Under the pieces are notes generated by a model, which searched no databases, was not told where the DNA came from, and worked only from the letters and a program-made list of their open reading frames with translations. This document shows positions 1-6,974 of a stretch of DNA of 64,000 bases, piece after piece. Both the position numbers and the translations under genes were made by a program. The stretch is from Sphingobacteriaceae bacterium (lineage in GTDB: Bacteria; Bacteroidota; Bacteroidia; Sphingobacteriales; Sphingobacteriaceae), in contig JAQSWM010000010.1 of the NCBI GenBank assembly GCA_029266635.1, positions 1-64,000 on the forward strand, read 5' to 3'. Position 1 is the stretch's first letter. Every line of letters starts with the position of its first letter.

Positions 1-866
1 GCAGTTACTACCCAAAAATATTTCAGGGTAGCCTTCATTGACGGAGTTGCCTGTATGCTTAACAGTGGGTCTTCTCCGGGGATAGTTTCCGCGACTTCTT
101 CCTGGTGGTTCCTGGCATTATAGAACACAAGCAAGCCAATGCCCAGCAACAGCATGATCACGCTAAACCCGGTCCAGATCATCAGGTCTCCGGTAGCAAT
201 GTTGCCAACCAGTGGCTCCGAAGGCCAGTTATGCGTGTACGACACAGTTTCGCCCGGACGCTCGGCAACACATGCCCAGCTCGCCCAGAAAAAGAACATA
301 TTGATCTGCTTCAGCCTGACAGGATCTTTAATGGAATTCTTCGGGATGGCATATGCTTCCCGCAACTTGTTAAACTTCGGGTCATCCGCGAAAAGCGATG
401 AATAATATTGACTTAGGTAAGAAAATGCCTTGGCTCTTACAGGTGAAAGTTCAAGAGTCTTGGTTTGTTCATTGAAGGTATTCTTTCTCACTTCTGTTGT
501 AAGCCGGGCCTGCAATGCCGCCTTCCTCTCGCCCGTGAGGCGATTGTAAGGATGCCCGAATTCTTCTTTTGCCCAATAATCAAGAATGAACATGGCTTCC
601 CGATGTATCCAGTCAGCAGTCCAGTCTGGAGCTACATAAGCGCCGTGCCCCCATATAGATCCAACTTCCTGCCCACCTATGCTCTGCCAAACGTTCTGGC
701 CATCCTGAATGTCGCTTCCGGTAAACAGCACCTTACCTGCCGACACTACCTTCTCAGGAATTGGAGGTGCTTTTTGATAAATTTTAATTCCATAATACCC
801 CAGCGTGGCAAACGATAGGCCAACTACTACCGCAAACAGGACCCAGAGCTTTCGTGTACTTTTCAT
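1..866 (-). CDS. norB: nitric-oxide reductase large subunit, quinol type (partial)
   Basis: Reduces two NO to N2O at a haem b3/non-haem iron site in the inner membrane. Only the N-terminal 288 codons lie in the window; the gene runs off the left edge, so the catalytic histidines are not visible. The translation starts MKSTRKLWVLF with a membrane helix, then a periplasmic domain containing WQSIGGQEVGSIWGHGAYVAPD and WIHREA, typical of the fused, single-subunit quinol NOR (about 750 residues), then a second helix near residues 235-260. The ATG at 866 follows a good Bacteroidota -7 element. It is divergent from ric and the rest of the NO-response operon, which supports an NO-detoxifying or denitrifying role. 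Confidence is high for the family; cytochrome-c-type NOR is less likely because of the fused N-terminal domain. Confidence 0.9.
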   Translation of the reverse strand, partial: MKSTRKLWVLFAVVVGLSFATLGYYGIKIYQKAPPIPEKVVSAGKVLFTGSDIQDGQNVWQSIGGQEVGSIWGHGAYVAPDWTADWIHREAMFILDYWAKEEFGHPYNRLTGERKAALQARLTTEVRKNTFNEQTKTLELSPVRAKAFSYLSQYYSSLFADDPKFNKLREAYAIPKNSIKDPVRLKQINMFFFWASWACVAERPGETVSYTHNWPSEPLVGNIATGDLMIWTGFSVIMLLLGIGLLVFYNARNHQEEVAETIPGEDPLLSIQATPSMKATLKYFWVVT

Positions 867-903
867 TGATTATTCGTTTTATAAACCCTTATTAGTTCTG
901 AGG

Positions 904-911
904 CAAAGATA
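904..911 (-). promoter_or_regulatory. putative norB promoter -7 element
   Basis: On the minus strand the octamer TATCTTTG matches the Bacteroidota -7 consensus TAnnTTTG exactly and lies 38 bases before the norB start codon. No good -33 TTTG is seen at the usual spacing of about 19 bases. The AATAACGGATAA word sits just upstream, between the -7 and the expected -33 position. Confidence 0.55.
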
Positions 912-921
912 TATCACGAAC

Positions 922-940
922 AATAACGGATAAAAATATC
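922..940. promoter_or_regulatory. candidate operator, copy 1 (norB side)
   Basis: AATAACGGATAA (922-933) is repeated exactly at 1011-1022. It continues into a dyad with GATA and TATC arms around AAAA (929-940). It lies directly upstream of the norB -7 element, a typical repressor position. The regulator is not known from sequence; one of the two Rrf2 proteins of the cluster is the obvious candidate (inference). Confidence 0.45.
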
Positions 941-996
941 TTTTATAATTTTAATGTCAGGAAAACTGCATAAAGAATAAAAATTGGCAAGCAAGA

Positions 997-1027
997 CTTG
1001 GAACTTAAATAATAACGGATAATTTTG
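997..1027 (+). promoter_or_regulatory. putative promoter of the ric operon
   Basis: The -7 element TAATTTTG (1020-1027) fits TAnnTTTG. A -33-like CTTG lies at 997-1000 with a 19-base spacer, the usual Bacteroidota spacing. The ric ATG follows 18 bases downstream. The repeated word AATAACGGATAA overlaps the -7 element, so a bound protein would block the polymerase. Confidence 0.6.
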
Positions 1028-1030
1028 TCT
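1011..1030. promoter_or_regulatory. candidate operator, copy 2 (ric side)
   Basis: This is the second exact copy of AATAACGGATAA, 89 bases from the first. Here the dyad is weaker (GATA, ATTT, TGTC). Shared bases across both copies are ACGGATAAnnnTnTCTT. It overlaps the ric -7 element. Confidence 0.45.
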
Positions 1031-1045
1031 TAAATTAAAAATCAC

Positions 1046-1996
1046 ATGGAAACCCTTGATATCTTAAACGTGAGCGTGATTGAACCACGCCTGAAACACC
1101 CAACGATCTTTGGCAAGTTTGACGAGCTAAACTCCGGAGAAGGCTTCGTAATCCACAACGACCACGACCCTAAACCACTTTACTACCAATTATTAGCAGA
1201 GCGGGGACAAATCTTCAACTGGGAGTACCTTGAAAGCGGCCCTGAGGTTTGGCGTGTAAAAATTGCCAAGCGCAAAGCAGGGCAGGATGAAGAAACCATA
1301 GGCGAATTGGTTGCCAAGGATTTCCGCAAGGCCCAGGTATTCAAAAAGCTCGGTATAGACTTTTGCTGCGGCGGCAAAAAAACTTTGCAGGAAGTTTGCG
1401 ATAAAAAAGGCATTGACATTCAGGCGGTAGAAGCCGAGCTGACAGCCATCTCACGCGAGGGACAACCTTCCGGCCAGGATTTCCAGAAATGGGACCTTGG
1501 ATTTCTGAGCGATTACGTTGCGAACACCCACCACAGCTATGTACGTGAAAGCATTCCATTCCTGAGTGAGATCTCACAAAAAGTTGCCCGTGTTCACGGA
1601 GACCGCCACCCCGAGTTGGTAAAAGTGGCACAGTCCTTCGCACGTGTGGCACTGGACCTGAGCATGCACATGGTGAAAGAAGAGAATATTCTTTTCCCAT
1701 ACATTAAAGAGATGGCAGCGGCTAAAAAAACCGGGGCTTCTCTGCCGACTTCGCACTTTACAAGCGTTTCAAACCCAATCCAGGTGATGGAAATGGAACA
1801 CGAAACTGTTGGAGAGGATCTATCGGAAATCAGAACTCTGACAAACGACTTTGGCCTACCGGCTGATGCCTGCGCATCGTACACTGTTTTATTCCAAAAG
1901 CTTCAGGAGTTCGAAAGCGATTTGTTCCAGCACGTGCACCTGGAGAATAACATTCTGTTCCCCAAAGCTCTTGAGCTTGAAAAAGAATTAAAATAA
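1046..1996 (+). CDS. ric: iron-sulfur cluster repair di-iron protein (RIC/ScdA family)
   Basis: Repairs Fe-S clusters damaged by NO or oxidative stress, in the cytoplasm. Three domains are visible: a DUF2249 domain at residues 10-75, the ScdA_N/DUF542 domain at about 85-135 with the hallmark LGIDFCCGGKKTL, and a hemerythrin-like domain at about 150-316 with di-iron ligand motifs (THHSY, HGDRH, HMVKEEN, MEHE, HVHLENN). The classic YtfE/ScdA protein lacks the N-terminal DUF2249 domain, so this 316-residue form is an extended version common in Bacteroidota. It is the first gene of the operon divergent from norB and carries the repeated operator-like word in its promoter. Identification is secure; the role of the DUF2249 part is unknown. 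Confidence 0.95.
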   Translation: METLDILNVSVIEPRLKHPTIFGKFDELNSGEGFVIHNDHDPKPLYYQLLAERGQIFNWEYLESGPEVWRVKIAKRKAGQDEETIGELVAKDFRKAQVFKKLGIDFCCGGKKTLQEVCDKKGIDIQAVEAELTAISREGQPSGQDFQKWDLGFLSDYVANTHHSYVRESIPFLSEISQKVARVHGDRHPELVKVAQSFARVALDLSMHMVKEENILFPYIKEMAAAKKTGASLPTSHFTSVSNPIQVMEMEHETVGEDLSEIRTLTNDFGLPADACASYTVLFQKLQEFESDLFQHVHLENNILFPKALELEKELK

Positions 1997-2023
1997 AACG
2001 GGGGTTGGGAAGAGGGGAAGCTT

Positions 2024-2452
2024 ATGTTGCTGTCGAAATCGTGCGAATACGCCATCAGAGCTTCTATCTACATTGCTGCTAAAACAGCAGTGAAGAAGCG
2101 GGCTGATATTCGTGAAATTGCCGACGCCATAGGCTCCCCTATTTCTTTCACAGCAAAAGTGCTGCAAAAGCTATCTTGCAAACAGCTTATCTCATCTGTA
2201 CGAGGACCGAACGGCGGCTACTACATAAAAGATCCATTGGCAGTGTATTTGGTAGACATTGTGCGGGCAATTGATGGCAATGATCTTTTTTCTGCATGCG
2301 CTATGGGGCTGCAAACCTGTTCTGACACAAAGCCCTGTCCCATGCACCACGATATCAAGCCGCTCCGGGCACAATTGCTCACAGAATTCAGCAAGGCATC
2401 TGTAGGCGAAACCTCAGCTGATTACTGGCTGGAAAAATACTTTCTGAAATAG
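2024..2452 (+). CDS. Rrf2 family transcriptional regulator, NsrR-like (copy 1)
   Basis: A 142-residue winged-helix Rrf2 regulator. The N-terminal helix (LSKSCEYAIRASIYIA), the recognition helix region and the wing GPNGGY are present. Three cysteines at about residues 92, 99 and 105 (C-x6-C-x5-C, in SACAMGLQTC and KPCPMHH) match the place where NsrR and IscR bind a cluster, suggesting an NO- or Fe-S-sensing repressor. It lies 27 bases after ric and 12 bases before the hemerythrin gene, so it is probably co-transcribed and autoregulated. A close paralogue ends the same operon (6546). The name nsrR is withheld because the C-x6-C spacing is one residue longer than usual and no target is proven. 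Confidence 0.9.
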   Translation: MLLSKSCEYAIRASIYIAAKTAVKKRADIREIADAIGSPISFTAKVLQKLSCKQLISSVRGPNGGYYIKDPLAVYLVDIVRAIDGNDLFSACAMGLQTCSDTKPCPMHHDIKPLRAQLLTEFSKASVGETSADYWLEKYFLK

Positions 2453-2464
2453 TTAAATATCGTT

Positions 2465-2932
2465 ATGAAAAGGAACATCAATCTACAGGAGCTTTCCAAA
2501 GATCACCACCATGGTTTGCTGCTGGGATGGAAAATCAGGCAGGGCCTGCAAAGGAAGATCGCCCCGGAGGCGATTAAGAACTACGTATCATACTTTGTGA
2601 ACGAAGCATTGCTGCCACATTTCAGAGAAGAAGAAGAGGTTATTTTTTCCAGCCTTGCCGATACTGATAATCTTATACAAGAAGCGCTAAAGGAGCACTC
2701 TCAGATAGAGGATTTGGCAAAAAGAATCAGCAAGAAACCAAATACTGAAAATTTGAATCTTCTCGCGGACTTGCTGGATGCTCATATCCGCTTCGAAGAG
2801 CGCACTTTATTCCCTCATCTGGAGCAAAACCTGACGGCTGAGGTGTTGGAAAGTATAGGGCAAGAGTTAAAAAACAGGCATCAGCCATTTATAGAAAATT
2901 ATCCCGATGAGTTTTGGAAACGAAGCAATTGA
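2465..2932 (+). CDS. hemerythrin domain-containing protein
   Basis: A 155-residue stand-alone hemerythrin HHE protein, predicted four-helix bundle with a di-iron site. Candidate ligands are in DHHHG (residues 13-17), PHFREEEE (about 51-58), KEHSQIE (about 78-84), DAHIRFEERTLFPH (about 107-120). Its position between an NsrR-like gene and a DUF2249 gene points to NO or O2 sensing or binding, or iron delivery to RIC. Its last 26 bases overlap the next gene in another frame, evidence of translational coupling. The function beyond the fold is inferred. Confidence 0.88.
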   Translation: MKRNINLQELSKDHHHGLLLGWKIRQGLQRKIAPEAIKNYVSYFVNEALLPHFREEEEVIFSSLADTDNLIQEALKEHSQIEDLAKRISKKPNTENLNLLADLLDAHIRFEERTLFPHLEQNLTAEVLESIGQELKNRHQPFIENYPDEFWKRSN

Positions 2933-3728
2933 CCGGAATACCACGATCAAAACCCTTCTCGATGTCAAAGAGGGACTGGTAATTGATGCGCTGATAAATC
3001 TCAACAAGAACTTCAGCAAGCTCAAAAACCCAATTCTCAGGAAGCTACTCGCCAAAAGAGTTTCGATTGCGGATGCCTGCAAAATTGCCGGCTGCAACAT
3101 TCCTGATTTCCTGAAAACGATGCAGCACATCGGCTTCAGGCTTGCTGATGAGCCGGGCGAGGCAAAAACAGCAGAACAAACTCCGTTTACTCCACCACCC
3201 GAACACCTTGTAATAGAGTTCGACGTAAGGCCAATCCTCGCCCGGAACGAGGATCCGCTCAAGGCAATCGTGAACAAAGCATCGCAGCTAAAGCCGGGCG
3301 AATATCTCAAGGTCATCAACAGCTTTGAACCAACTCCGTTGATCACGCTCCTGAACAGAAAAGGCTATCAATCTTACACCAGCCTTGAAAAACCAGATCT
3401 TTCAATAACCTACTTTTTTAAATCTCAGAATCAAATGGAACAGGATATTGCTGTAGGAACTTTCATCAACACCATGGCGAATTTCGACGAGACCCTGGAG
3501 AAATATCGCAGCAAGCTGAAGGAAATTGATGTTACACATTTGGAGATGCCGCAGCCCATGCATACCATCCTCAACGAAATAAAGAATCTGGGCCCGGACC
3601 AGGCACTCTTTGTGCATCACAAAAAGATTCCAGTCTATCTTTTGCCTAATTTGCACGACGAAGGATTTGAATATCTAATCCACGAAGAAGCACCCGGAAA
3701 AGTTTCTATATTGATTTACAAACCGTAA
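2907..3728 (+). CDS. DUF1858-DUF2249-DUF2249 protein
   Basis: A 273-residue soluble protein. Residues 10-80 look like a DUF1858/ScdA_N-type domain (FSKLKNPILRKLLAKRVSI, then ACKIAGCN), followed by two DUF2249 domains (about 95-175 with VIEFDVRPILA; about 205-273 with MPQPMHTILNEIKNLGPDQ). DUF2249 is also fused to the front of ric in this operon, so both proteins probably share a partner or ligand. The ATG at 2907 lies inside the upstream gene; the next in-frame methionine would remove most of the first domain. DUF1858/DUF2249 proteins are recurrent companions of NO-stress genes, but their biochemical role is unknown. Confidence 0.85.
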   Translation: MSFGNEAIDRNTTIKTLLDVKEGLVIDALINLNKNFSKLKNPILRKLLAKRVSIADACKIAGCNIPDFLKTMQHIGFRLADEPGEAKTAEQTPFTPPPEHLVIEFDVRPILARNEDPLKAIVNKASQLKPGEYLKVINSFEPTPLITLLNRKGYQSYTSLEKPDLSITYFFKSQNQMEQDIAVGTFINTMANFDETLEKYRSKLKEIDVTHLEMPQPMHTILNEIKNLGPDQALFVHHKKIPVYLLPNLHDEGFEYLIHEEAPGKVSILIYKP

Positions 3729-3738
3729 AGCTGCCGCC

Positions 3739-4995
3739 GTGTACAGGATTGTCGTTGCCCATTACGTATTTTCTGCTCTTTGCCTGGTTGCTCTCGCAAC
3801 ACTGCTGCTATTTTCTACCGGTGATCTTTTCGGCAATTACTTCAGTCCGCACCTGCTTGCAATTACCCATCTCGCTGCTTTGGGCTGGGGCACTTCTGTG
3901 ATATTCGGCGCCTGCTACCAGCTCATCCCGGTTGTATTTGAAACCAAATTGTTCAGCACCAAACTTCCGTGGATCGGTTTTGTGATGCTGGCTGCCGGTG
4001 TAATTTTGCTGGCAAGCTCGTTCTGGAGATTCGATGTTGGCACCTACATGCAGCTTGCGGGAGCCCTTATCGTTACCGCCATCGTTCTGTTCAATGCAAC
4101 TGTGATGCTCACCGCACGCCAAAACAAAAAAGCAGCTGCAATTTACCAGGAATTTATCTCCACCGCCTGCATTTGGCTTTTTGCCACGGCTTTGCTCGGA
4201 CTTCTGCTGGTGCTAAATTTCAGATACATTTTCCTCCCAAAAGACCACCTGCACTTTCTAAAACTGCACGCACACATGGGCATCGCGGGCTGGTTCCTGC
4301 TTCTGATCATCGGCGTAAGCTCTAAGCTTATCCCTATGTTCCTGGCTTCGCGGAAGCAAAATGAAAAGCTCCTTAACTGGAGTTACTACCTGATAAACGC
4401 GGCATTGCTGGCTTTCCTCGTTGACGGCTACATCAATGGAATCAATTACAAAACCTTCGCGATAGCTGCCGCTGCGGTTGCCGGCCTGGTTTTTTATGCC
4501 ATTTACATTGTGCAGTGCTTCCGCTCAAGGCTCAAAAAGAAAATAGAGCTGCCTATAACCAACACCCTTATTTCATACGGCTTACTTGCTGCTGCAGTTC
4601 TGATTTTACCATTGATCATCTATTTCCATCTGCAAAACGACGGGCGAGCTGTGCTCTACAGCAATGTGTATGGCTTTTTGATCTTCATTGGCTGGATAAG
4701 TTCGCTAATCCTCGGGCAGGCATTCAAAACGCTTCCATTTATAGTCTGGACTAGAAAGTATGAAGATCTGGCGGGGCGGGTGAAAACTCCTTTGCCCGCC
4801 GAGCTCTACAGCCATTCTCTGCTAAAGGTCCAAACCGCTGCTTATACTCTGTTCTGCGCCTGTTTTTTCATTGGGATGCTTTTGCAGAATAGCTGGCTTA
4901 CCCTGGCGGGATTAATTTGCCTGCTGATCACCTCGCTGACTTACATCGGCAATATCTTTGTACTCTTATCCCACAAATCTGCCCGGCTGAAATGA
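3739..4995 (+). CDS. polytopic membrane protein, NnrS/haem-copper oxidase subunit I-like
   Basis: A 418-residue integral membrane protein with about 12 hydrophobic helices. Conserved-looking histidine motifs sit at helix ends: FSPHLLAITHLAALGWG (about residues 36-52) and LKLHAHMGIAGW (about 173-184), reminiscent of NnrS and of subunit I of haem-copper oxidases. The start is GTG at 3739, 10 bases after the previous stop; no upstream ATG fits. The last four bases overlap the next gene (ATGA), a coupled junction. In this NO cluster it could bind haem and take part in NO detoxification or signalling; that is inference. Confidence 0.75.
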   Translation: MYRIVVAHYVFSALCLVALATLLLFSTGDLFGNYFSPHLLAITHLAALGWGTSVIFGACYQLIPVVFETKLFSTKLPWIGFVMLAAGVILLASSFWRFDVGTYMQLAGALIVTAIVLFNATVMLTARQNKKAAAIYQEFISTACIWLFATALLGLLLVLNFRYIFLPKDHLHFLKLHAHMGIAGWFLLLIIGVSSKLIPMFLASRKQNEKLLNWSYYLINAALLAFLVDGYINGINYKTFAIAAAAVAGLVFYAIYIVQCFRSRLKKKIELPITNTLISYGLLAAAVLILPLIIYFHLQNDGRAVLYSNVYGFLIFIGWISSLILGQAFKTLPFIVWTRKYEDLAGRVKTPLPAELYSHSLLKVQTAAYTLFCACFFIGMLLQNSWLTLAGLICLLITSLTYIGNIFVLLSHKSARLK

Positions 4996-5324
4996 AAGAC
5001 TTCGATATCAACAATCCTGATGTATTTCTTCAAATTGAGATCCAGGAAAACCTGCGTACGGTAATTGATCCCGAGTTGCACGTGAATATCATTGATCTCG
5101 GCTTGGTTTATGAAATTGAGGCGTCGCAGGACAATAAACATATTGCCGTTCTCATGACCATGTCGTCACGATATTGCCCCATGAGCGAGGCCATTCTTAA
5201 TTCTGTGCGTAATTGCCTGGAAGAAAACTACCGGGGCTACTCGGTTGAGGTAAATTTAACGTGGGAGCCGCCCTGGAGCTATGAACTCATATCTGAAGAA
5301 GGGCTGAAACAACTGGGGCGCTGA
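4992..5324 (+). CDS. DUF59 (MIP18/SufT-like) Fe-S assembly protein
   Basis: A 110-residue protein of the DUF59/MIP18 family, involved in Fe-S cluster maturation. The core motifs LRTVIDPELHVNIIDLGLVY (residues 17-36) and the cysteine-containing MSSRYCPMSE are visible. The start chosen is the ATG at 4992, which overlaps the previous stop as ATGA; a longer frame from 4917 would run into the upstream gene. Sandwiched between two membrane proteins in an operon headed by ric, it suggests cluster insertion into, or repair of, a membrane or NO-damaged protein. Confidence 0.88.
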   Translation: MKDFDINNPDVFLQIEIQENLRTVIDPELHVNIIDLGLVYEIEASQDNKHIAVLMTMSSRYCPMSEAILNSVRNCLEENYRGYSVEVNLTWEPPWSYELISEEGLKQLGR

Positions 5325-5326
5325 GG

Positions 5327-6526
5327 GTGGAAAGAAGGCTGGTTTATTGGGCATTCGCTGGATTTATTGTGCTGTCGGTATTTGGCACTTTGCTCAGGGC
5401 GATGTTTGTGCTGCCCATTCCCCTGCTTAATTATTCCTTTTTGCTGCACGCCCATTCGCACTTCGGCTTTTCCGGGCTTGTATTTCTTTCGCTGGCACTA
5501 TTGGTGGTTAAGGCGATTTCACCGGAAGGCTTAAAAAACTATCGGGCTGTTTTCATCCTCACGCTCATATCTGCTTTTGGGATGCTTGTAGCTTTTTCGC
5601 TCCAAGGTTACAAAGCCGTTTCGATTATCTTTTCAACCCTGTTCATTGTCACTAACTACTACTTTGCTTACAAGCTGTTCCACGATAGGAACTTTAAGGC
5701 AGCACTCACTCCGCTCTCGCATCTTCTTTTAAAGTCTGCGCTGGTTTTCCTGTGCCTTTCGTCACTCGGCCCATTTTCTCTGGAGCCGCTGGTTTTGGCA
5801 GGATATAAAGCAACGCCTTTGTATAATGATGCCATTTACTTCTACCTACATTTCCAGATGAATGGCTGGATGCTCTGTGCCGCTTTAGGACTTTTTGCTA
5901 ACACTTATGCCCAAAATTGCGAGAGCCAAAAGGCAAAGCTTTGGGCTACGATCTTCGTTCTATCAACGGCGCCATTGTATTTCCTCTTCACGCTGTGGGG
6001 CTCTCCTCCGCAAATTGTGCGTTGGCTTGCCTTCGCGGGAGCTGCTTTCAACCTGATAAGCTGGATTAAACTCCTCCAGTCACTCAGGCTCAATTATAAA
6101 AGCCTGCCGATTTTGATCAAAGTTGCACTTTTAGGCATTTTGCTCAAGGTGATTTTCCAGGTGCCGGCTTGTTTTCCACCGATTGGCGACTGGGTATTTT
6201 CAAACCGCAATCTGATCATCGGCTACATCCATTTGCTGACCCTTGGCATAATCATGCCGATCATCCTGCAGTTATTTGTATCGTCTGGAATGGTGAAAGC
6301 CACGTTTTTATTCCAAAAACTTAATTTGCTTTTTATCGCAACCACCGTGCTTTATTTGCTGGTTTTGTTTGTTCAGCCTGCTGCTGCTTTCTTCAATGTG
6401 AGCATACCGAACCTGCAAATCTTCCTTTTGGCTATCGCGATTATTTTCCTCCTGGTGGGAGTAGCTTATATGTTTGCGGTTAAACAGCGGAATAATTCAG
6501 ATAATCCTTTAAATATAGGCAGTTGA
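5327..6526 (+). CDS. polytopic membrane protein with HAHSHFGFSG motif
   Basis: A 399-residue protein with about 12 predicted helices. The second helix region contains LLHAHSHFGFSG (about residues 39-50); other membrane histidines occur in YFYLHFQMNGW and YIHLLTLG. These histidine pairs resemble haem-binding positions of haem-copper oxidase/NOR-like proteins, but the sequence is too divergent to name by eye. It starts with GTG at 5327, two bases after the previous stop, so it is in the same transcript. It is not a copy of the membrane protein at 3739, although both share histidine-rich helices and size. Function unknown; an NO- or respiration-related role is inferred from context. Confidence 0.7.
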   Translation: MERRLVYWAFAGFIVLSVFGTLLRAMFVLPIPLLNYSFLLHAHSHFGFSGLVFLSLALLVVKAISPEGLKNYRAVFILTLISAFGMLVAFSLQGYKAVSIIFSTLFIVTNYYFAYKLFHDRNFKAALTPLSHLLLKSALVFLCLSSLGPFSLEPLVLAGYKATPLYNDAIYFYLHFQMNGWMLCAALGLFANTYAQNCESQKAKLWATIFVLSTAPLYFLFTLWGSPPQIVRWLAFAGAAFNLISWIKLLQSLRLNYKSLPILIKVALLGILLKVIFQVPACFPPIGDWVFSNRNLIIGYIHLLTLGIIMPIILQLFVSSGMVKATFLFQKLNLLFIATTVLYLLVLFVQPAAAFFNVSIPNLQIFLLAIAIIFLLVGVAYMFAVKQRNNSDNPLNIGS

Positions 6527-6545
6527 TAATTAGGTTTGTGAACGT

Positions 6546-6974
6546 ATGATCCTATCAAAGTCATGTGAGTACGGCATCAGGGCTGCTGTTTACATCGCCT
6601 ACAAATCGTCTAAAGGGCTAAAGGCGGGCATTACAGAAATTTCCGATGAAATAGGGTCGCCAGTGCATTTTACAGGCAAAATCCTTCAGCAGCTATCGCG
6701 AAAGAAAGTGATCTCAGCAATCAAAGGGCCAAACGGTGGATACTTCATTGAGAATTCGGCAAACGTGTACCTCGTGGATATTGTGCGTGCGATTGATGGC
6801 AATGAGCTTTTCAGCGCCTGTGTGATGGGGTTAAAAAACTGCTCTGATCTGCGCCCTTGCCCCATGCACGAGCAAATCAAGCCGGTGCGCACGCAATTGC
6901 TCATCGAGTTCAGCAAGAAATCTGTGCAGGAACTGGTGCAGGATTACGAGCAGAACAAATACTTCCTGAAATGA
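6546..6974 (+). CDS. Rrf2 family transcriptional regulator, NsrR-like (copy 2)
   Basis: A 142-residue paralogue of the regulator at 2024: same length, more than half the positions identical by eye, same wing GPNGGY, same cysteine pattern (SACVMGLKNC, LRPCPMH), same C-terminal KYFLK. It closes the operon, 19 bases after the last membrane protein. Two near-identical sensors at the two ends of one operon suggest duplication with division of labour, for example different affinity for NO or different target sites. Most differences fall in residues 20-35 and 120-137. Confidence 0.9.
   Translation: MILSKSCEYGIRAAVYIAYKSSKGLKAGITEISDEIGSPVHFTGKILQQLSRKKVISAIKGPNGGYFIENSANVYLVDIVRAIDGNELFSACVMGLKNCSDLRPCPMHEQIKPVRTQLLIEFSKKSVQELVQDYEQNKYFLK

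Follow-up and report, generated by a model that had tools for sequence, protein, structure and literature searches.

The first part of a 64,000-base stretch of DNA from a Sphingobacteriaceae bacterium (assembly GCA_029266635.1, contig JAQSWM010000010.1, positions 1 to 64,000 of the forward strand; hereafter the window) carries what we read, with a probability of about 0.62, as a nitric oxide (NO) response island. In this reading, an Rrf2 regulon would combine a quinol-dependent NO reductase (qNor) that removes NO, proteins that repair iron-sulfur (Fe-S) sites, and two unnamed membrane proteins, MP1 and MP2, that act as protective haem b proteins. Both are predicted to adopt the fold of heme-copper-oxidase subunit I, both keep histidines of the haem-ligand type, and both are linked in Bacteroidota to genes for NO and nitrous oxide (N2O) metabolism. 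What was computed is the fold prediction, the conservation of the histidines, the order of the genes, the operator and the NO/N2O linkage; haem content, NO chemistry and the direction of regulation we infer.

The window begins at base 1 of contig C18 in an assembly of 3.6 Mb that is 95.76% complete; the part studied extends to about 9,000, with DNA patterns and neighbouring open reading frames followed to 20,000. As the sequence-only reading of this DNA had proposed, qNor diverges from an eight-gene unit with gaps of -26 to 27 bases, and every gene was found where that reading had placed it. All eight genes of the unit lie on one strand, with successive gaps of 27, 12, -26, 10, -4, 2 and 19 bases.

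3..866, minus strand: qNor, N-terminal 288 amino acids (PF22085, E 7.5e-72); the remainder is probably on contig C15
928..946, plus strand: predicted Rrf2 operator 1, a perfect match to GGATAWWWWTRTCTTWWAT
1017..1035, plus strand: predicted Rrf2 operator 2, a second perfect GGATAWWWWTRTCTTWWAT match, 10 bases ahead of the ric start
1046..1996, plus strand: ric/YtfE-type di-iron repair protein with N-terminal DUF2249 (TIGR03652; PF10006, PF04405, PF01814)
2024..2452, plus strand: Rrf2 regulator a, cysteines C-x6-C-x5-C (PF02082, E 4.3e-21)
2465..2932, plus strand: hemerythrin-domain protein (PF01814, E 6.5e-16)
2907..3728, plus strand: DUF1858 and two DUF2249 stretches (PF08984, 2e-9; PF10006, 4.5e-24)
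3739..4995, plus strand: MP1, predicted 12-helix heme-copper-oxidase fold, H44 and H177 conserved (structure model, VIA, alignment)
4992..5324, plus strand: DUF59 (SufT/MIP18-type) Fe-S assembly factor (PF01883, E 1e-11)
5327..6526, plus strand: MP2, predicted 12-helix heme-copper-oxidase fold, H43/H45/H175/H302 invariant (structure model, VIA, alignment)
6546..6974, plus strand: Rrf2 regulator b, three cysteines as in regulator a (PF02082, E 1.3e-19)

Predicted fold and conserved histidines

The MP2 model was built on an alignment of 65 sequences, the window protein and 64 relatives, and reached a mean pLDDT of 93.8 and a pTM of 0.92. These relatives come from the MP2 loci, which are the best 80 of 431 confirmed; 78 of them yielded proteins of 360-480 amino acids, and 64 of those entered the alignment. 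For MP1, 11 sequences gave a model with a mean pLDDT of 83.5 and a pTM of 0.83. The 1000 best PDB chains from Foldseek were re-ranked with VIA for each model. MP1 aligned to CcoN (9g6b_A) with Z 34.9 and a root-mean-square deviation of 3.0 over 391 residues, and MP2 to CcoN (3mk7_D) with Z 34.9 and 2.8 over 384 residues, at 10-12% identity in the best CcoN alignments. The cNOR structure 4xyd scored Z 32.2 to MP1 and 32.7 to MP2, and the descriptions of all 50 displayed rows, for either model, name subunits of heme-copper oxidases or NO reductases. In the tool's own trial, five mostly helical models lacking a clear match reached a Z of about 14. MP1 and MP2 are each predicted by these models to adopt a complete heme-copper-oxidase subunit-I fold. 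Both models show three four-helix units in an oxidase fold that lacks the ligand set of the oxidases, which is reportedly what defines the three-unit heme-copper-oxidase homologues (HCOH).

Neither protein passes the cut-off of any Pfam or NCBIfam family, and neither matches Pfam COX1 (PF00115) at E up to 1; the three COX1 matches in this genome all lie away from MP1 and MP2. Residues 35-97 of MP1 weakly resemble an NCBIfam cbb3 oxidase model (E 7e-6), and the MP1 profile finds CcoN chains in the PDB (E 8e-8). Profiles were also compared with hhalign in local and global modes, each with matched reversed controls. Locally, helices 1-4 of MP1 align with helices 9-12 of CcoN at a probability of 96.8 (E 2e-10; reversed 0.1), and the global mode gives 97.0 for MP1 and CcoN (reversed 0.2). 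MP1 and MP2 align with each other at 85.3 in local mode (E 6e-6, 274 columns; reversed 0.2) and 94.2 in global mode (E 2e-8, 380 columns; reversed 0.1). As controls, three unrelated membrane families score at most 9.5, and one reversed pair in another local-mode run reached 11.3 over 16 columns. With the thirds of MP2 reordered, the comparison with MP1 gave 85.3 in order (274 columns), 91.4 for 3-1-2 (308) and 90.3 for 2-3-1 (204), and for CcoN the same three orders gave 94.3 (97 columns), 95.8 (130) and 95.8 (130); these scores differ too little between orders to speak for or against a circular rotation of MP1 relative to CcoN or MP2.

The sequence-only reading had called one of the two membrane proteins NnrS-like, which these profiles do not bear out. 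Neither MP1 nor MP2 matches PF05940 (NnrS), a profile that does recognise the pHG1 NnrS at 6.9e-111, and membership of the NnrS family by profile is rejected. Among 60 relatives there was likewise no PF05940 match, in a search that had no positive control. Against nine NnrS proteins, hhalign gave MP1 and MP2 a probability of at most 0.4, a test of little power since NnrS and CcoN go equally undetected.

In MP2, H43, H45, H175 and H302 are kept in all 81 sequences and H41 in 80 of them, and by the helix limits of the model they sit on helices 2, 6 and 10. In MP1, H44 (helix 2) and H177 (helix 6) are kept in 11 of 11 sequences from Bacteroidota, Alphaproteobacteria, Thermus and Aliarcobacter, and H179 in 10 of the 11 of the Bacteroidota set. 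As a control, eight CcoN sequences were treated in the same way, and the six known ligands (H59, H206, H256, H257, H344 and H346) were among their 12 conserved histidines. The motifs that had been likened to haem ligands at first sight are real and conserved, and of the haem-ligand type within the predicted fold. Because its two histidines lie on different helices, MP1 is suggested to carry one haem; in MP2 there could be room for one haem and possibly for a second site.

The oxidase ligand set comprises six histidines (helix 2, helix 6, a pair on helix 7 and a pair on helix 10), and neither protein has it. No conserved histidine was found in MP1 or MP2 on helix 7, where the oxidases carry the histidine pair of CuB/FeB, and helix 10 has one conserved histidine in MP2, none in MP1 and two in CcoN. 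With these ligands missing, oxidase or canonical NO reductase activity is rejected for both proteins, and the membrane enzyme of the sequence-only reading cannot be taken as proven. Its Fe-S version is not supported and was rejected, as the MP1 and MP2 alignments hold no invariant or nearly invariant cysteine.

Distribution and gene neighbourhoods

The stretches fetched around the 80 MP2 loci contain nos genes in 48 cases, ric or qNor in 58, and at least one of these in 72. By record title, 78 of the loci are from Bacteroidota, the exceptions being an Ignavibacteria bin and an Opitutales bin, and the closest named records among the matches listed are Desertivirga, a Pedobacter bin and Mucilaginibacter. 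A phylum survey of 247 genomes sampled evenly across Bacteroidota places MP2 in 49, a count that includes 21 weaker matches (E above 1e-60). NosZ occurs in 37 of these 49 genomes vs 48 of the 198 without MP2 (p 4.7e-11). NosZ or the PF22085 NorB is found in 43 of 49 vs 58 of 198, where sub-threshold PF22085 matches (8 of 33 genomes) did not qualify as Nor, and exclusion of the weaker MP2 matches leaves NosZ or Nor in 25 of 28 MP2 genomes vs 76 of 219 others. As counted from the listing, MP2 lies no more than 25 kb from nosZ or nor in 34 of the 49. The genome of the window itself has no PF18764 NosZ match.

MP1 is rarer. It occurs in 15 of the 247 genomes, six of which also carry MP2, so an obligate MP1-MP2 pair is rejected; a match in G211 was left out because only residues 31-106 align, inside a 721-amino-acid CcoN-type frame. 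Of the 60 relatives, 18 carry MP1, and 14 of these carry MP2 as well (cross-hits to CcoN frames excluded). Phylum-wide, NosZ accompanies MP1 in 13 of 15 genomes vs 72 of 232 others (p 2.7e-5). The NO/N2O context that had been proposed for both membrane proteins is upheld by these counts and by the 72 of 80 MP2 loci; the opposite pattern, in which the genes stand mainly outside NO and denitrification contexts, was looked for and did not appear in the sets tested.

The arrangement of the genes is also maintained. The nearest named relative among the matches listed (L079) has ric, hemerythrin, DUF1858/DUF2249, MP1, DUF59, MP2 and Rrf2 in the same order as the window, without the first Rrf2 gene, and its unit adjoins a nos cluster. 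The conservation in Bacteroidota that had been put forward as a check is thus seen, and the eight-gene unit is conserved among relatives and is not a product of chance. In ten Bacteroidota MP1 loci, DUF1858/DUF2249 adjoins MP1 in nine and DUF59 in eight. Outside the phylum, 114 plasmid records matched MP1 and four annotated loci were examined, in all of which DUF59 is the next annotated gene to MP1 or the next but one, past DUF2249. S. medicae pSymA reads norCBQD-hemN-DUF2249-MP1-DUF59-NnrS-Crp/Fnr-pseudoazurin (two small or unrelated genes omitted), and Mesorhizobium reads MP1-DUF2249-DUF59-DUF1858-Crp/Fnr-pseudoazurin-NnrS. Thermus pTF19b (L179:5527-9325) has DUF2249, DUF1858/DUF2249, a 144-amino-acid protein, a protoglobin, MP1 and DUF59, and Aliarcobacter has a weak DUF2249 followed by MP1 and DUF59. 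The neighbouring families have some record of their own. A DUF1858 gene stands at -29.2 in a table for a Bradyrhizobium nnrR mutant (in part of PMC6710368). Text from PMC11218638 reports that DUF2249 genes rise in denitrifying haloarchaea and credits Pei et al. 2014 with linking DUF2249 to the oxidase superfamily. SufT, a DUF59 protein, functions in Fe-S maturation according to an excerpt of PMC4982691, where four DUF59-DUF1858 architectures are counted.

At the start of the unit, the ric product scores 255.4 bits against a TIGR03652 cut-off of 204.7, as a RIC/YtfE protein does. qNor is truncated by the start of C18: its part in the window corresponds to residues 1-289 of a relative's qNor at 66% identity, and a frame at the end of C15 (36225-37456) corresponds to residues 315-752 of it at 81%. 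The ends of C15 and C18 (1-866) probably hold the C- and N-terminal parts of qNor and would be neighbours in the genome; across this presumed join the protein has the fused cytochrome-c-like domain (PF22085) and, on C15, the COX1 core that belong to a qNor.

Several side observations concern the same neighbourhoods. On a Tunicatimonas plasmid (L178:1972-18509), a segment flanked on both sides by Tn3 genes, of which that on the right is a short fragment, holds rrf2-ric-MP2-cytc-nosZ-two small genes-nosD-ABC ATPase-ABC permease-Crp, which raises the possibility of N2O reduction as mobile cargo. Two MP2 genes occur in L028 and in genomes G020, G090 and G028, and in G020 and G090 the copies are about 10 kb apart, one on each side of nosZ. 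The 144-amino-acid Thermus protein resembles COX1 weakly (E 7e-5, under the cut-off) and may be an oxidase homologue of a single unit that neighbours one of three units, MP1. A Martelella plasmid (L167) carries tandem NnrS genes with NnrU behind them on the opposite strand.

Rrf2 regulators and a predicted operator

The two Rrf2 proteins are 64% identical (91/142) and each has three cysteines, in a C-x5to7-C-x5-C pattern that recurs in 45 of 45 Rrf2 matches of the 80 MP2 loci. An Rrf2 domain with three cysteines, as in NsrR, is thus present in both, and both score below the cut-off of 182 bits for the NCBIfam NsrR equivalog NF008240 (42.2 and 49.9 bits).

The operator spacing was derived from relatives and then tested. 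Perfect copies of GGATAWWWWTRTCTTWWAT number two in the whole assembly, both in the 179-base gap between qNor and ric, and none of 20,000 base shuffles of this gap gave one. With up to two mismatches, a scan of the genome yielded 7 sites for the real pattern vs 6 for a backwards control, and because of this near equality we rely solely on the two perfect sites. A looser search for palindromes returned 21 matches vs 9 expected, with neither operator site among them. Among the 80 MP2 loci, the core GGATA-N4-TRTC lies upstream of rrf2, ric, MP2, qNor, hemerythrin or cytochrome c genes in 22, namely in 21 of 41 loci with rrf2 vs 1 of 39 without (p 5e-7; none in backwards sequences), a test that is partly circular for some loci because the motif was first noticed there, several of the loci also being close relatives. 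Sites of the core number 31 in the 40,469 bases ahead of unit genes vs 6 in the 63,960 bases ahead of other genes.

A common NO-sensing Rrf2 regulon would be the simplest reading of these observations, with NO sensing attributed by analogy to NsrR. The position of MP1 and MP2 and the predicted operator appear compatible with an NO-responsive regulon.

In 23 of the 80 loci (L085, L087 and L096 among them), a Crp-type regulator stands directly before MP2; in one member scanned with Pfam it consists of a receiver and a Crp part. Thirty loci have a Crp-type regulator and no rrf2, and one of these has the operator. The Crp-type regulator is a second regulatory type for the MP2 module.

Proposed role and known relatives

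In the mechanism that we favour, two Fe-S Rrf2 repressors of the NsrR type would bind both GGATA-N4-TRTC operators in the gap from qNor to ric, with NO lifting their repression. qNor would then remove NO, while ric, hemerythrin, the DUF2249 proteins and DUF59 would, judging from their families, repair or refill NO-damaged iron and Fe-S sites. MP1 and MP2 most likely count among the heme-copper-oxidase-homology proteins and carry haem b, placed in the inner membrane with an oxidase subunit-I fold and no copper/iron-B site. What they would most likely bind within the membrane is NO itself, or else iron or haem that NO has damaged, and they would protect haem and iron proteins, plus NosZ where it is present. 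NnrS is thought to give such protection in Proteobacteria. That MP1 and MP2 are NO-handling haem proteins seems to us modestly favoured, every step from the haem onward being a deduction.

Several points weigh against this reading. The predicted fold reveals no function, and haem in MP1 and MP2 is deduced from their histidines. There is no significant sequence similarity between MP2 and CcoN (hhalign probability 0.4), and because of this the kinship of MP2 to the oxidases rests on its model and on MP1. For MP1 itself, a residue-by-residue equivalence of ligands with CcoN is uncertain because the similarity is shifted by one four-helix unit. At eight of the 80 MP2 loci nos genes, ric and qNor are all absent, and for six of these the stretch covered is 12-21 kb long; among the 49 MP2 genomes, six show no NosZ and no PF22085 reductase. 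No denitrification gene is in view at the Thermus pTF19b and Aliarcobacter MP1 loci. Kinship among genomes inflates the p-values for co-occurrence (4.7e-11 and 2.7e-5) and for the operator (5e-7). Finally, no experimental work on the MP1 or MP2 family was found in the literature searched.

Perhaps MP1 does not bind NO but assists Fe-S or iron/haem repair from within the membrane, with DUF59 and DUF2249 serving it from the cytoplasmic side. The closeness of DUF59, adjoining MP1 in 8 of 10 Bacteroidota loci and adjacent or next but one in 4 of 4 others, is what such a role would lead one to expect; nevertheless, DUF59 may mature merely another protein of the unit, and the conserved histidines would, by oxidase helix numbering, lie in the periplasm-facing half of helices 2 and 6. 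We consider this alternative unlikely, if the best placed of those weighed. More speculative, and improbable, is a proposal in which MP2 would found a Bacteroidota oxidase-fold family with a low-spin haem and a second haem or metal site (H41/H43/H45, H175 and H302, on three symmetry-related helices), an FeB-free NO guard or reductase coupled to clade II N2O reductase, and MP1 would be a circularly permuted CcoN relative working with DUF59 and DUF2249.

Less probable again is that MP2 is a haem b electron carrier from menaquinol to a cytochrome c next to nosZ, serving NosZ or Nor. MP2 does adjoin cytochrome c-nosZ clusters, as in the Tn3-flanked rrf2-ric-MP2-cytc-nosZ segment of the Tunicatimonas plasmid, where NosR is not annotated, but 24 of the 80 MP2 loci have ric or qNor with no nos genes in reach, the genome of the window has no NosZ match, and 48 NosZ genomes are without MP2. 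Last in our ranking comes MP2, and perhaps MP1, as an active NO reductase with a low-spin haem and a second haem site but no FeB three-histidine site: the predicted oxidase/NO reductase fold of both proteins, the four invariant MP2 histidines on three symmetry-related helices plus H41, and seven genomes with MP2, qNor or ric nearby and NosZ not found (G000, the window's own, G006, G023, only 85% complete, G057, G078, G221 and G272) are outweighed by the missing helix-7 histidine pair for CuB/FeB, by the redundancy of a second NO reductase where qNor adjoins the MP2 unit, and by the lack of any recognised quinol or cytochrome c domain in the Pfam/NCBIfam scans.

To our knowledge, little is known of how Bacteroidota sense NO and protect N2O reductase, and two conserved unnamed membrane proteins with a predicted operator offer testable handles on both. 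Oxidase-fold proteins without an oxygen-reducing site also bear on the origin of heme-copper oxidases and NO reductases. In a survey of wastewater genomes, Bacteroidota made up 70.6% of clade II N2O reducers (PMC11409646).

Among known systems, the NsrR regulons share Rrf2-type control of NO genes with the unit and differ from it in the NF008240 scores, which here fall below the cut-off. The GGATA-N4-TRTC operator presumably differs from the E. coli-type NsrR site as well. In Proteobacteria, norB, dnrN/ric and nnrS genes are described as under Rrf2-type control, and NnrS as a membrane protein of NO regulons with a length similar to that of MP1 and MP2 (passages of PMC1274295). Rhizobial records also place NnrS alongside DUF59, an MP1 homologue and Crp/Fnr; the NnrS histidine set, however, is unlike that of MP1 and MP2, and there is no profile match. 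Clade II nos scaffolds of Bacteroidota with Rrf2, some with dnrN and nnrS, appeared in 2018 (PMC6264515). Their neighbourhood is similar, and the passages of that paper on them assign neither a fold nor an operator to the membrane proteins. CcoN resembles MP1 and MP2 over the whole fold (Z 34.9), with MP1 helices 1-4 resembling CcoN helices 9-12, but only CcoN has the helix-7 histidine pair.

No publication naming MP1 or MP2 was found in the literature searched, and as far as these searches show, the MP2 fold assignment, its phylum-wide NO/N2O link and the operator are new. "Undescribed", as the sequence-only reading had it, would nevertheless go too far for the kind of protein. Pei et al. are said to have described three-unit HCOH proteins computationally in 2014, NnrS included, reportedly with 12 helices, few histidines, one suggested haem and NO/denitrification contexts. 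MP1 fits this description closely, whereas MP2 departs from it in having four to five conserved histidines instead of two and a link to nos clusters.

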